Source: a virus. Taken from it: 32,282 nt of DNA. Positions 1 to 3,756 of this stretch are shown here, one piece after another. Each line of letters opens with the position of its first letter. Positions within the stretch are counted from its first letter, which is position 1. The notes beneath the pieces are model-generated. The model had not been told where the DNA came from, did not search any database, and was given only the letters and a program-made list of their open reading frames with translations. Position numbers and translations under genes: made by a program. The stretch covers positions 1 to 32,282 of the IMG/VR virus record IMGVR_UViG_3300025138_000187, one strand, 5' to 3'.

Positions 1-422
1 CAGTACAACCGTAAGTAAAAGGTATACACGATCCATTATCTATATTTGCTAATTGATCATAGTTAAACATTGTAGGATCAGTACAACCATAAACAACGTC
101 TATGCAGCTACCATCATCTACATTTGCTTGTGGCATGAAATTAAGTGCTGAAGGATCCATACACCCAAAAATAGGTAGTATACAACTGTTGTCATCTGTG
201 TTTGCTAATGAGTCATAATTTAAAGCAATATCACTTGTACAACCATATATAAACGGAATACAAGTATCGGGTGTGTTTGCTAATATGTTGTAGTTAAATG
301 CAAAAGCATCCATACAACCTGTAACTACAGGTAAGCAACCACCATTATCAACGTTAGCTAAATCATTGTAGTTAAAAGCTGTTGAGTCAGTGCAACCAAA
401 AACAGCTAGAGTATTACAACTA
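1..422 (-). repeat. Tandem 78-nt (26-codon) coding repeat
   Basis: Six consecutive degenerate copies have their Gly-Cys codons ending at plus-strand positions 10, 88, 166, 244, 319 and 397, a spacing of 78, 78, 78, 75 and 78 nt. Each encodes a GC(T/M)D-x-NY-x-AN-DDGSC-like unit with two cysteines, probably a small disulfide-closed or metal-binding loop. The DNA copies differ at many positions while the protein pattern is kept, so this is an old protein repeat under selection and not a recent slippage product. More copies are expected beyond the left edge. Confidence 0.85.
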
Positions 423-1468
423 TCTTGAACATTTATATCTGTGTAGTAAGTGTTAGCTGTATCAACGTGATATTCTAAATACGCTGGAGATATACAGCCT
501 GGATAGTAATAACAACTCTGAGCAGTGTTTGCTGTATCTACATAGTTAAATGCTAGAGTGTCCATACAGCCATATACTATATCTTCACATATATTACCAC
601 AATAAGTAAAACCTTCGTAGCACACAAATGGCTGTATGAAAGGTGGTTGAACACTTATAGCTGTATCACCATCAGGTGCAATCAGCGTAAAGCCACATTC
701 TACAGCTGTAAATTGTGCTTGTTGACTAATAAAAAGTTTAGCACTAACAGGAGCTGGTGCGTACAAGTCTATAGTAAATGCTTGGTTAAAACCACCGTTT
801 GTCATAAAAAAAGCAGTAGTATCACCGTCTTGATATATTTCTAATGTAGTTCCAAAAACCCAACCATTACCTATTAAATCGTGTAGTATAAGATCGTAAG
901 TACATTGAACAATGTTATCCATAGCGTTTGCTAGTGGATCGTAGTTATACATAGTGCTATCAGTACAACCGTAAACTATCAATGTGTTGCAGCTACTATC
1001 ACTAACATTTGCTAATGGGTTATATTCTAAGTAATCATCATCAGTACAACCAGGAACTGGTGGTGGTGGCGGGCAGAAATCAGAAACAAAATAATGAGTA
1101 GTATCTAAACCAAAAGCGGGATTGTCTCCATAAACTAAAGTATCACCACATTGTACTACATAGTAAGAACCATCTTGTCCACCCCATATACTTCCTTGCA
1201 AACCATCTCCATACTGATCATATATAGTAAATGCCATATAACCAACAGGTAGACAGTGATTAATATATTGAGGTTGATAGTTAGGTACATTAGTATAAGG
1301 ACCTCCTGATATAAGAACATTACCTAAAGAGTCTTGAATATCCCAAGTAGTTTCTGATGGGTATTGATCTAGGTTTATATTAATTAAAGTATTTTCACAA
1401 TAACTACCTTGAGCAGTCATTGTAAAGCTTATTAAAAAAGCTATTATAAATGCTAGTAAACTACGCAT
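1..1468 (-). CDS. Secreted flavobacterial-type repeat protein (partial, runs off the left edge)
   Basis: The frame is open from the ATG at 1468 to the window edge (489 codons, no stop), so the C-terminus is missing. It begins with a clear signal peptide (MRSLLAFIIAFLISFTMTAQ, cleavage probably after TAQ). Residues about 24-135 form a beta-rich domain with a YPSETTWDIQDSLG segment and a YDQYGDG motif, a type common in secreted proteins of marine flavobacteria. A PPPPP linker follows. Cys-containing repeats start with Gly-Cys at residues 140, 167, 300, 324, 358, 384, 409, 435, 461 and 487. The clearest copies read GCTDPTMFNYDQLANIDNGS-C. A second beta-rich domain (about 190-290) is inserted between copies 2 and 3. 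Such repeats are known from large Bacteroidota surface proteins. A signal peptide is unexpected for a phage tail fibre, so I infer an exported adhesin or surface decoration made during infection. No catalytic motif is seen. The ATG lies inside the preceding micro-gene, overlapping it by 8 nt. Confidence 0.85.
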   Translation of the reverse strand, partial: MRSLLAFIIAFLISFTMTAQGSYCENTLININLDQYPSETTWDIQDSLGNVLISGGPYTNVPNYQPQYINHCLPVGYMAFTIYDQYGDGLQGSIWGGQDGSYYVVQCGDTLVYGDNPAFGLDTTHYFVSDFCPPPPPVPGCTDDDYLEYNPLANVSDSSCNTLIVYGCTDSTMYNYDPLANAMDNIVQCTYDLILHDLIGNGWVFGTTLEIYQDGDTTAFFMTNGGFNQAFTIDLYAPAPVSAKLFISQQAQFTAVECGFTLIAPDGDTAISVQPPFIQPFVCYEGFTYCGNICEDIVYGCMDTLAFNYVDTANTAQSCYYYPGCISPAYLEYHVDTANTYYTDINVQDSCNTLAVFGCTDSTAFNYNDLANVDNGGCLPVVTGCMDAFAFNYNILANTPDTCIPFIYGCTSDIALNYDSLANTDDNSCILPIFGCMDPSALNFMPQANVDDGSCIDVVYGCTDPTMFNYDQLANIDNGSCIPFTYGCT

Positions 1469-1532
1469 GCGAACCATCACAATTACCGTTAGCATCTTTT
1501 GTTTTACCGCACATACATTTTTTTTCTTTCAT
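1461..1532 (-). CDS. CDGSH-like micro-protein, 23 residues
   Basis: An ATG at 1532 opens a 23-codon frame ending in TAG at 1461-1463. It contains CMCGKTKDANGNCDGSH, i.e. C6-x-C8 followed by C18-D-G-S-H22. This is the three-Cys one-His ligand pattern of CDGSH [2Fe-2S] proteins (C-x-C-x2-S/T-x3-P-x-C-D-G-S/A/T-H), with one residue more than the consensus between the second and third Cys and no proline. Known CDGSH domains are about 40 residues, so this is little more than the ligand loop. It starts 4 nt after the lipoprotein stop at 1537 and its end overlaps the start of the repeat protein (1468), which fits a translationally coupled operon. The context of A-rich sequence before ATG matches the neighbours. 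Whether it folds or binds a cluster alone is inference; it might dimerise or bind zinc. Confidence 0.7.
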   Translation of the reverse strand: MKEKKCMCGKTKDANGNCDGSHA

Positions 1533-1536
1533 AATT

Positions 1537-2088
1537 TTATTCTTTAATTTTTATTGTTATATCATGAGGAGCAAATTCGTTTCCACCAAAATAAGGATAT
1601 AAGTAATACCTTCTAATTGTTCCCCAAAATCCATCAGGTCTTCTTCTTACGCTTGTAGTATCTCCGTCTATTGTTATAGTATAGTAAAATGTTTCTATAT
1701 CAATCATCGCCTCGTACGATGTGTTTATTTCTATATTTCTTATAAAGCCAGAAGACATTGAATTGTTTTCACGCTTTAACCAACAAAGCTCTATGTTACC
1801 TTCTATATATCTCCAACCTAATCTTATAGAGTATTTTTTATGTGATTTGCCAAAGTCGCTAAAACCATATATCTTGTTAACATCATATTGATTTTCTGGT
1901 ATCTCAGTTGTATACTCTGCCGATTCGTCTAGTATAAAACGAAACTTAATTCTAGAGTTGTCTGGGTGGTTAAAAAAACTACCTGATCTATGTTCACCTT
2001 CTGGTATTATGTAAGTTCTATAGCCAAGGTCGTCAGTTTCTTTAGCACAAGATACAAATAGTAGTAATATTAATAATCTAAAAGTCAC
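1537..2088 (-). CDS. Predicted surface lipoprotein, beta-rich, function unknown
   Basis: The 183-residue product starts with a hydrophobic stretch and a lipobox (LLFVSC, Cys14), followed by AKETDD. Acidic or lysine-acidic residues right after the lipidated Cys resemble the lipoprotein export signal that sends Bacteroidota lipoproteins to the cell surface; that is inference. The only workable start is GTG at 2088. A TGA lies in frame directly upstream and the next in-frame Met is far beyond the signal peptide. The start overlaps the end of the thioredoxin-like gene by 11 nt (stop at 2078-2080). The body is rich in alternating beta-strand patterns and aromatic residues and ends with YPYFGGNEFAPHDITIKI, which recalls ConA-like jelly-roll proteins, but I cannot name a family. 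Two further cysteines are not paired in an obvious motif. Confidence 0.75.
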   Translation of the reverse strand: MTFRLLILLLFVSCAKETDDLGYRTYIIPEGEHRSGSFFNHPDNSRIKFRFILDESAEYTTEIPENQYDVNKIYGFSDFGKSHKKYSIRLGWRYIEGNIELCWLKRENNSMSSGFIRNIEINTSYEAMIDIETFYYTITIDGDTTSVRRRPDGFWGTIRRYYLYPYFGGNEFAPHDITIKIKE

Positions 2089-2404
2089 TCATTAATAGTT
2101 CATCAATCACCGCTTGCATTTCTTTTCTTGTAGCTTTCATACTGAATGATATATCAGCTTGAAACCTTTTTACTTCTTCACCATCTTTATATATAACAAC
2201 CGTTGGCACTATAATTATTTCATGTTTTTCTTGTAACTTAGGCGCTTTAGCTATATCTACATATACTATATCACAGTCAGTAAGCTTTCCTATGTATGCT
2301 ACTTTGTTTGGATCGTTCCACTCGGCATTAAAATGTGTAACCACAATCTGTGAGCTAGCACTTAAACTAAATGCTGTAAAAAGTATTAGTAATAATTTTT
2401 TCAT
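2078..2404 (-). CDS. Exported thioredoxin-fold protein lacking the CxxC active site
   Basis: The 108-residue protein has a cleavable-looking signal peptide (residues 1-19, MKKLLLILFTAFSLSASSQ) and then a compact thioredoxin fold. It shows strand VVTHFNAEWNDPNK (21-34), strand DIVYVDI (45-51), the cis-proline loop IIVPTVVIYKDGEEV (64-78) and a C-terminal helix. In a normal thioredoxin the first stretch reads F-x-A-x-W-C-G-P-C-K; here the two catalytic cysteines are Asn30 and Asn33 around Asp31-Pro32. Only one cysteine (C44) remains, so thiol-disulfide exchange is excluded. The cis-Pro67 surface used for partner binding is retained, so a binding role in the periplasm is likely. The gene sits between a membrane-anchored protein and a lipoprotein in the exported cassette, 6 nt after the former. 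Family assignment is fairly sure; role is unknown. Confidence 0.8.
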   Translation of the reverse strand: MKKLLLILFTAFSLSASSQIVVTHFNAEWNDPNKVAYIGKLTDCDIVYVDIAKAPKLQEKHEIIIVPTVVIYKDGEEVKRFQADISFSMKATRKEMQAVIDELLMSDF

Positions 2405-2410
2405 TTAATT

Positions 2411-2686
2411 TTATCTAAGTTTATCGATCTTATCTTCCATTCTTCTAATATCAATCTTTAACTCTTCTACAGCTTTTTCTGTGTTTTCTATAGATTGACG
2501 TACGTTAACATCTTTCATATTAAATTCCATGCGAGTAATATCTGGTTTAGGCAGCTCTTTTGCCTCAGCTATATCTGCTTGTAAAGCAAACCACATACCT
2601 ATAATAGTTGCCATGGCAAAGCCAACAGCTATTAGTGTTTTTATACTTATATTAAAACCTGTATTTTCATTTAAATCGTTTGCCAT
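2411..2686 (-). CDS. Single-pass membrane protein with C-terminal coiled coil
   Basis: This is a 91-residue protein with a polar N-terminus (1-15), one transmembrane helix (about 16-36, rich in Ile, Ala and Met, containing IIGMWFAL) and a charged tail. Residues about 58-91 form a heptad-like amphipathic helix (VEELKIDIRRMEDKIDKLR). The N-in, C-out arrangement with a periplasmic coiled coil is that of inner-membrane spanins or other small phage envelope proteins, but the sequence alone does not prove it. It lies 20 nt behind the outer-membrane-like gene and 6 nt ahead of the thioredoxin-like gene, and the same short spacing suggests one transcript. No endolysin is visible in the window to support a complete lysis module. 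A holin or an anchoring protein for the exported cassette are alternatives. Confidence 0.7.
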   Translation of the reverse strand: MANDLNENTGFNISIKTLIAVGFAMATIIGMWFALQADIAEAKELPKPDITRMEFNMKDVNVRQSIENTEKAVEELKIDIRRMEDKIDKLR

Positions 2687-2706
2687 TTTCTTAGTTTTGA
2701 GTATAG

Positions 2707-3756
2707 TTAAAATATTACATAATTTACACCAAACTTAAAGTCATACCACTCTCTATTCCAGTACTTATTGTATTTACCTTCAACAAAAGTACCTAAGTGT
2801 TTATTTATTTTATAACCAAGTATGATACCACCACTGTAATCAAGCCATTGACTACCCTCGTATTTATGATAAGAGTAATTGTTACCTCCGTCTAAATGAT
2901 AAGGCATAACGTTAGCCCAAGCATGTGACCAAAATGATTTTGTGTAACGGTAGTAATCAAAACCTAAAACAACAGAGTGTTGTATTATTTGATCTAGTTC
3001 ATTGCGTTTTCTTTCTGTATAACTTGCTAGCACGCCTGGTATTACAACTTCTTCCCAAATCTCTTTGCTTGTAGCAACGAGTTCTCCATCAGGAGAAAAA
3101 TACTCACTAGCAGCTACATTGACATTATAGCCTTCTTGCAGTGCTAGGTAAGTGTAATGTATATTGCCATTGCTTAGCATCCACTCAGCCAAAGGATTAT
3201 ATCCGTACGGTTCGGATAACCTTTGAGCAAGCCCAGCATTAAAAGACAATTTGTCATTAACTTTATATCTATATCTTTCCGATGTCTCAAAGTATTTGAT
3301 GTCAGCAAAACCATCTTCTAGGTATTCACCTTTTAATATATACTTATCATCTACAAATCTTACAAAGTGATGTTGATCTAAATACTCATTACCTTGTTGT
3401 CTTTTGTAATCTACTTCAAATAAAAATTCTAAGCCACGTACTTTACCTACGTTAGCGCCGTCTGACCACGACTGTTCTGTACCATCATAAAACGTTTGTG
3501 CTCTGTTTTCGTAACCAAATCTAGCAATTTTACGCACGCCAAGAGCTAAGTTGTAGTCATATGGAGTTTCTACTGTTACAGTTTCTAAACCATTGTTAAC
3601 AGAAAATACATCTATATCTGATATAGAGTTACCACCGTTCGCAGCGGCATAAAACGTAGCAAATTTAAAATACTTTTTTAAATTTTGTGAACAACATTTT
3701 TTCGGCGCCGCACAAGCAACCAGTGCTATACACATTATTATTATTAGTTTCTTCAT
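2707..3756 (-). CDS. Outer-membrane beta-barrel-like protein of phage origin
   Basis: This 349-residue protein begins with a signal sequence (MKKLIIIMCIALVAC) containing a lipobox-like LVAC at Cys15 and a second Cys pair at about 21-22. It could be lipidated or cleaved by signal peptidase I. The rest is dominated by alternating aromatic/polar strands: YNLALGVRKIARFGYENRA, VRGLEFLFEVDYKRQQ, QHSVVLGFDYYRYTK, LDYSGGIILGYKINKH and HLGTFVEGKYNKYW. It ends in FKFGVNYVIF, and a terminal aromatic residue on a last beta strand is the classic outer-membrane-barrel signature read by the BAM machinery. It starts by an ATGA overlap with the stop of the giant ejection protein, so it is co-translated with late virion genes. 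I infer insertion in the host outer membrane. Receptor masking or superinfection exclusion is possible, and being a virion component is less likely because of the signal peptide. Confidence 0.75.
   Translation of the reverse strand: MKKLIIIMCIALVACAAPKKCCSQNLKKYFKFATFYAAANGGNSISDIDVFSVNNGLETVTVETPYDYNLALGVRKIARFGYENRAQTFYDGTEQSWSDGANVGKVRGLEFLFEVDYKRQQGNEYLDQHHFVRFVDDKYILKGEYLEDGFADIKYFETSERYRYKVNDKLSFNAGLAQRLSEPYGYNPLAEWMLSNGNIHYTYLALQEGYNVNVAASEYFSPDGELVATSKEIWEEVVIPGVLASYTERKRNELDQIIQHSVVLGFDYYRYTKSFWSHAWANVMPYHLDGGNNYSYHKYEGSQWLDYSGGIILGYKINKHLGTFVEGKYNKYWNREWYDFKFGVNYVIF

Follow-up and report, generated by a model that had tools for sequence, protein, structure and literature searches.

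The DNA analysed here, called the window, is a virus record of 32,282 bases carrying a Flavobacteriia-phage structural module, and its portal protein resembles those of Cellulophaga, Flavobacterium (elemo), Tenacibaculum, and Maribacter phages, with a nearly full-length match at less than 60% identity. A minus-strand series of genes (Table 1) encodes, in order, an outer-membrane-like protein, a membrane and coiled-coil protein, a small thioredoxin-like protein, a lipoprotein, the product of a micro-gene, and a secreted repeat protein. A sequence-only reading of the window had proposed the micro-gene as an ATG–TAG frame of 23 codons that encodes little more than a CDGSH iron-sulfur motif; the frame is present and, a strand not having been named in that reading, lies on the minus strand. 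The packing described for it is exact, with 4 nt (1533–1536) between the end of the lipoprotein gene (1537) and the micro-gene ATG (1532) and an 8-nt overlap with the following gene, and the Cys/Cys/Cys/His ligand set is complete, with nine residues between the second and third cysteines, one more than the canonical CDGSH count. The thioredoxin-like protein looks like a phage-encoded envelope redox protein, and its gene is common across viral contigs (at least 80 loci). The lipoprotein is an all-beta, lectin-like jelly roll in a low-confidence model, which matches galectin-8 with a Z score of 11.4 and an rmsd of 3.3 over 132 residues. Its identification as a YceI lipocalin is unsupported, as it has no YceI match and the low-confidence model resembles galectin and alginate-lyase jelly rolls among the matches listed.

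Table 1. Positions of the micro-gene, its ligand motif, and the neighbouring minus-strand genes in the window.
Feature	Position	Strand	Description
Outer-membrane-like protein	2707..3756	-	First of the minus-strand gene series
Membrane and coiled-coil protein	2411..2686	-	In L142 and L190, a homologue immediately precedes the micro-gene
Small secreted thioredoxin-like protein	2078..2404	-	Pfam PF00085, 24.3 bits (cutoff 23.5); anchor for retrieving relatives
Lipoprotein gene, directly upstream of the micro-gene	1537..2088	-	Lipobox-like FVSC
Micro-gene	1461..1532	-	23 codons ATG–TAG, stop included; peptide MKEKKCMCGKTKDANGNCDGSHA; same-place homologues in L002 and L005
Ligand motif CMCGKTKDANGNCDGSH	1467..1517	-	17 residues; Cys6, Cys8, Cys18, and His22 of the peptide
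Overlap between the micro-gene TAG and the start of the following gene	1461..1468	-	8 nt; next-gene ATG at 1468
Secreted repeat protein, directly downstream of the micro-gene	1..1468	-	Extends beyond the window edge

Related loci were retrieved by the neighbouring thioredoxin-like gene and then scanned with a loose motif permitting 3–14 spacer residues. The same peptide type occurs in the loci L002, L005, L007, L009, L014, L022, L023, L030, and L034, every time with a 9-residue spacer and the form CxCGKTxxxxGxCDGSH despite the range permitted. A degenerate DNA pattern for C-x-C-G-x6-G-x-C-D-G-x-H matched at least 120 stretches of IMG/VR in frame and none when the spacer was made one base short as an off-frame control, and a looser version of the pattern gave at least 120 matches in frame versus 14 off frame. 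Three sets of bacterial genomes, each drawn around a centre genome picked for carrying the motif, were scanned as well. The forward pattern was found in 13 of 199 genomes in the set from a Polaribacter family, 16 of 59 in the set from a Paenibacillus family, and 3 of 141 in the set from the class to which an Opitutaceae genome belongs, and the pattern read backwards matched none of these about 400 genomes. An excess of synonymous substitution, which the sequence-only reading had put forward as a check, is found on the columns that the search pattern left free (omega 0.40 for 43 viral pairs and 0.23 for 59 cellular pairs), and omega for the viral set is 0.16 once the pattern-fixed columns are added to make 17, all of these being estimates from 17 codons only with near-saturated synonymous sites. 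By this measure of sequence change, the micro-gene family is shown to be under purifying selection. The frame and reversed-pattern controls, together with selection on the free columns, indicate that the micro-gene is a genuine gene and no chance string. The 23-mer itself has no match in profile searches of Pfam, PHROGs, and NCBIfam; tblastn of the window peptide against cultured phages found no match, 25-mers being too short for such a search, and a longer family member gave a single weak match (E 7). The motif was not found in the complete cultured relatives or module-sharers Nonlabens P12024L and Maribacter Panino or in the complete metagenome-derived podovirus MW202828.

The comparison of these sequences shows a family of stand-alone peptides of 22–35 residues, with longer and fused forms, that share CxCGx[TS]xxxxGxCDG[ST]H and are spread over phages, many of them marine, and the chromosomes of Flavobacteriia, Paenibacillaceae, and Opitutae. 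The phage carriers are probably phages of Bacteroidota. Among 163 non-redundant viral and cellular members, the modal length is 26 aa in phages and 27 aa in cells, with 3–16 residues before the motif and mostly 2–5 (most commonly 3) after it, and the peptides frequently end in ..SHLNK. The invariant columns are C, C, G, G, C, D, G, and H, with T nearly invariant; the pattern itself required Cys, Gly, Asp, and His in all but the thioredoxin-anchored loci, and there too these columns are invariant. Motif positions 6 (T/S) and 16 (S/T) are each kept in 94 of 94 viral variants, and the search imposed neither. When Gly11 was not imposed, it was nonetheless present in 70 of the 80 matches listed with a 9-residue spacer, and of the other 10, 3 look real (L478, L482, and L486) and 7 look like chance. 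When the proline of the canonical 8-residue spacer was left free, it was present in 76 of the 80 matches listed, the remaining 4 looking like chance. These counts among the listed matches indicate that two loop types coexist in viruses, one of eight residues with Pro and one of nine with Gly. Only the former is recognized by Pfam, as two canonical phage examples pass PF09360 with 31.3 and 34.9 bits (cutoff 29.5) and the best 9-spacer member scores 15.4 bits, under the gathering cutoff. Canonical 8-spacer CDGSH proteins, some shorter than 45 residues, are encoded by many viral contigs (L322–L441), and these phage proteins apparently have no description in the open-access papers searched. One phage subgroup of the micro-family (L098, L109, L110, L114, L121, L130, L161, L194, and L195) has a conserved C-terminal tail of approximately LFDMNNLPFPYL after the motif, and a tail of this type is perhaps a binding motif.

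Among phages related to the window, the micro-gene stands intact between the same two neighbours in L002 and L005, the place where the sequence-only reading had advised looking for it, and it is accessory: in L003, whose lipoprotein is ~70% identical, the lipoprotein stop leads directly to the start of a secreted-protein gene with the micro-gene cleanly absent, and it is likewise missing behind the lipoprotein in L006. Frameshifted or Cys-less relics beside conserved neighbours, named in that reading as the contrary sign, were not seen in the relatives examined, the absences being clean. The micro-gene lies upstream of a thioredoxin-like gene in L007, L014, and L030, directly after a membrane coiled-coil protein gene in L142 and L190 (of the same type as the preceding three), and directly after a thioredoxin-like gene in L009. 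Such differing positions among relatives, taken with the clean absences, indicate a small cassette that is mobile within its module. Neighbours in the 121 phage loci listed are almost always on the same strand as the micro-gene and include a holin (phrog_3427) in 41 loci, a membrane and coiled-coil protein in 39, an M15 endolysin (phrog_894, PF08291) in 32, and NinG in 31, where the families were verified on representatives, the counts are lower bounds, and percentages describe a sample. The most frequent arrangement has the membrane coiled-coil gene ending right at the start of the micro-gene or overlapping it, with a 59-residue membrane protein at approximately +65 nt; several loci have an M15-type protein at approximately +217 to +250. 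A DUF3127 protein (PF11325) is found nearby in at least 13 phage loci, which we take to point to Bacteroidota hosts, the group whose chromosomes also carry the micro-gene. The phage neighbours thus mark the micro-gene as accessory to late modules, whether for lysis or for the envelope, and not specifically to an envelope cassette; the envelope setting seen in the window is one of several, and in most phage loci the micro-gene lies in or beside lysis genes.

A scan of genome contigs yielded at least 117 usable cellular loci, mostly from Flavobacteriaceae, Polaribacter, and Cryomorphaceae, with further loci in Paenibacillus, Brevibacillus, and Opitutae, those of Opitutae being tandem pairs. The description of the frame as a real phage micro-gene stands in that the gene is real, conserved, and under purifying selection, but it is no phage invention, as bacterial chromosomes commonly carry the family. 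Of the 117 cellular loci listed, 53 have a YceI gene (PF04264) on the same strand immediately upstream, and FMN reductase (14), MarR (17), pirin (6), and HxlR (5) genes occur within 700 nt, these Pfam assignments having been verified on representatives, with counts that are lower bounds and proportions that describe the sample. In Flavobacteriia, the micro-gene often comes right behind YceI, and some of these loci continue with FMN reductase and pirin and have a MarR or HxlR regulator close by; L221 (Bacillales) has MarR directly upstream and a flavodoxin-fold reductase downstream, and two Paenibacillus-type loci have a nitroreductase within 700 nt. In 17 of the cellular loci listed, the micro-gene precedes trpE, and approximately half of those listed have no YceI/FMN-reductase/MarR-type neighbour within 1.3 kb. 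Two flavobacterial genomes fuse the motif to YceI: the proteins of L229 (902–1564, minus strand; YceI domain 81.2 bits in Pfam) and L245 (from 7624, plus strand) consist of an N-terminal micro-CDGSH motif, a hydrophobic segment, and a YceI domain. The fusion joins two genes that are adjacent in 53 other loci listed. The ligands of YceI lipocalins are ubiquinone-8 or other isoprenoids, and these proteins give protection from lipid peroxyl radicals by quenching them (PMC9113575), and proteobacterial YceI is gene-linked or fused to cytochrome b561, its proposed electron donor (PMC9113575). Synteny and fusion suggest a role for the microprotein in the YceI system of Bacteroidota, as its redox partner or as its guard.

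The motif is also found at the ends of longer proteins. RicT/PSP1 proteins with a +1-spacer CDGSH C-terminal tail (CHCGKTKDPNGNCDGAH) are encoded in L220 (2554–3735), L279 (4914–6065), and L317 (5977–7128), all on the plus strand and all adjoining a gene like that of DNA polymerase III delta'; the RicT/PSP1 homologue of B. subtilis is part of an Fe-S complex (PMC6751060). In L307 (4289–4939, minus strand), ribosomal protein bS16 is extended by a long acidic linker, with a micro-CDGSH motif at the C-terminus. A phage protein with an XkdF-like protease domain (PF14550, verified in L106, at 1854–3680 on the plus strand) ends in approximately CACGRTENPNGLCDGSHLK, and XkdF-like proteins with this type of ending also occur in L123, L128, L129, L132, L135, L184, and L189. 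A phage domain of ~75 residues with CxxCxxCP (CANCKSCPAIDIS) is fused to the motif in L157 (7146–7439, minus strand), L034 (9088–9390, plus strand), and L143; it has no Pfam match and vaguely resembles DUF397.

It is fairly probable that the micro-gene is a translated gene whose product is a minimal, CDGSH-like, putative metal-binding peptide. Its three cysteines and one histidine would hold a metal, for which a solvent-exposed [2Fe-2S] cluster like that of CDGSH proteins is the most likely candidate and zinc the alternative. Such a cluster would be expected to be exposed and labile. In the absence of the dimerising beta-sandwich, a partner protein or self-association would probably complete or stabilise the site, and partner-assisted binding would fit the occurrence of the motif as a tail or fusion on RicT/PSP1, bS16, a phage prohead protease, and YceI. 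In hosts, the peptide would serve a quinone/flavin redox system centred on YceI, either as electron donor or as guard, and phages with a copy of their own would thereby sustain that redox or iron-sulfur function during the late stage of infection. The redox role and the phage role are the least secure parts of this explanation. The full proposal, in which these peptides are free-standing minimal CDGSH iron-sulfur carriers that act as electron donor to or guard of YceI in marine Bacteroidota and were widely captured by phages for their late/lysis programme, is put forward tentatively and as a rather unlikely whole.

The alternative that deserves most attention is a mini zinc finger, in which Cys/Cys/Cys/His binds zinc structurally and the peptide is a clip for proteins or nucleic acids with no redox chemistry. 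Both the ligand set and the size suit zinc, the loop is longer than that of the Fe-S motif and without its proline, the motif is carried as a tail by unrelated proteins in the manner of docking tails, and the Pfam name of the canonical family remains 'zf-CDGSH'. Against this, the residues kept in the micro-family (D14, G15, S/T16, and S/T6) are those that shape the [2Fe-2S] site in CDGSH proteins, and the cellular neighbours are redox genes, which leaves a structural zinc site unlikely while still a serious competitor. A regulatory or coupling ORF, in which the act of translating a short Cys-rich frame would adjust expression of the following gene while its peptide is inert, might be read from the tight overlaps and packing with neighbours in the window and the phage loci and from the position before trpE, but the same peptide is found at many positions with differing next genes, it also serves as the tail or head of longer proteins, its conservation is at the amino-acid and not the codon level, and in L003 the lipoprotein gene couples directly to the next gene with no micro-gene between them; this explanation is very unlikely. 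Descent from a longer CDGSH domain or fusion protein, of which the frame would be a degenerate remnant, is likewise very unlikely: nothing but the motif is left and longer fused forms do exist, yet lengths cluster at 25–28 aa across phyla with the stand-alone form the commonest, selection is purifying, and no full CISD relative with a 9-residue spacer and Gly is among the matches listed. A chance ORF spelling a CDGSH-like string, which the mere 23 codons and the empty profile libraries might suggest, is refuted by the frame and reversed-pattern controls and by same-place conservation, and its probability is negligible.

The peptides make up an overlooked family of minimal CDGSH-like microproteins, encoded by phages and hosts and possibly linked to YceI quinone lipocalins. 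Members of ~25 codons that score below the Pfam cutoff explain why automatic annotation has missed the gene family in both, and in open-access literature on CDGSH proteins in phages or Flavobacteriia, the family was not found described. If a [2Fe-2S] cluster is bound, few natural [2Fe-2S] proteins would be as small as these peptides, and the CDGSH loop would work without the 'universal' proline and without the dimeric beta-sandwich, a module that the published view holds to be needed. The micro-gene would also offer a concrete lead to the partner of the YceI lipocalin in Bacteroidota.

With the CDGSH domain (CISD, PF09360 zf-CDGSH), the micro-family shares C-x-C, the S/T, C-D-G-[S/T]-H, and all four metal ligands, and it keeps the S/T three residues past the second cysteine and the S/T/A before the histidine that are expected of CISD. 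The family profile retrieves two CDGSH crystal structures, 3TBN (E 0.027) and 3TBM (E 0.054), as its top two matches in the PDB, both in alignments with a one-residue gap. The window peptide has no match to Pfam PF09360. The spacer between the second and third cysteines has nine residues in the micro-family versus eight in CISD, Gly-x stands where CISD has the universal Pro-hydrophobic pair, and a hydrophobic residue before the first cysteine, a CISD feature, is present in just 10% of the 163 members. At 22–35 aa versus the 53 aa of the smallest CISD structure reported in PMC3174974, the micro-family is without the CISD N-strand, P motif, and beta-sandwich. An AlphaFold model of a 30-residue flavobacterial member is of mid confidence (pLDDT 74, pTM 0.29), and its Foldseek search of the PDB gave no match, as expected with so short a chain. 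Lin et al. (2011) described CISD types 1–7, reported proline as universal in structurally known CDGSH motifs, and argued that the CDGSH motif requires a beta-sandwich dimer module (PMC3174974); a 23-mer, which at such a length cannot hold this module, is at odds with that requirement. The canonical CDGSH microproteins of phages (L348, MEKKPCTCGKSKNMPFCDGSH..., and L335, 24 aa from its Met) are likewise very short with identical ligands and, unlike the micro-family, have the 8-residue spacer with Pro, and L348 passes PF09360 with 31.3 bits. The genomic setting is like that of BcnA-LcoA of Burkholderia (PMC9113575), where a YceI lipocalin is gene-linked, sometimes fused, to a redox partner; in that system the partner is a cytochrome b561, whereas here it would be a tiny CDGSH-like peptide, with synteny and fusion as the sole pointers to a functional link.
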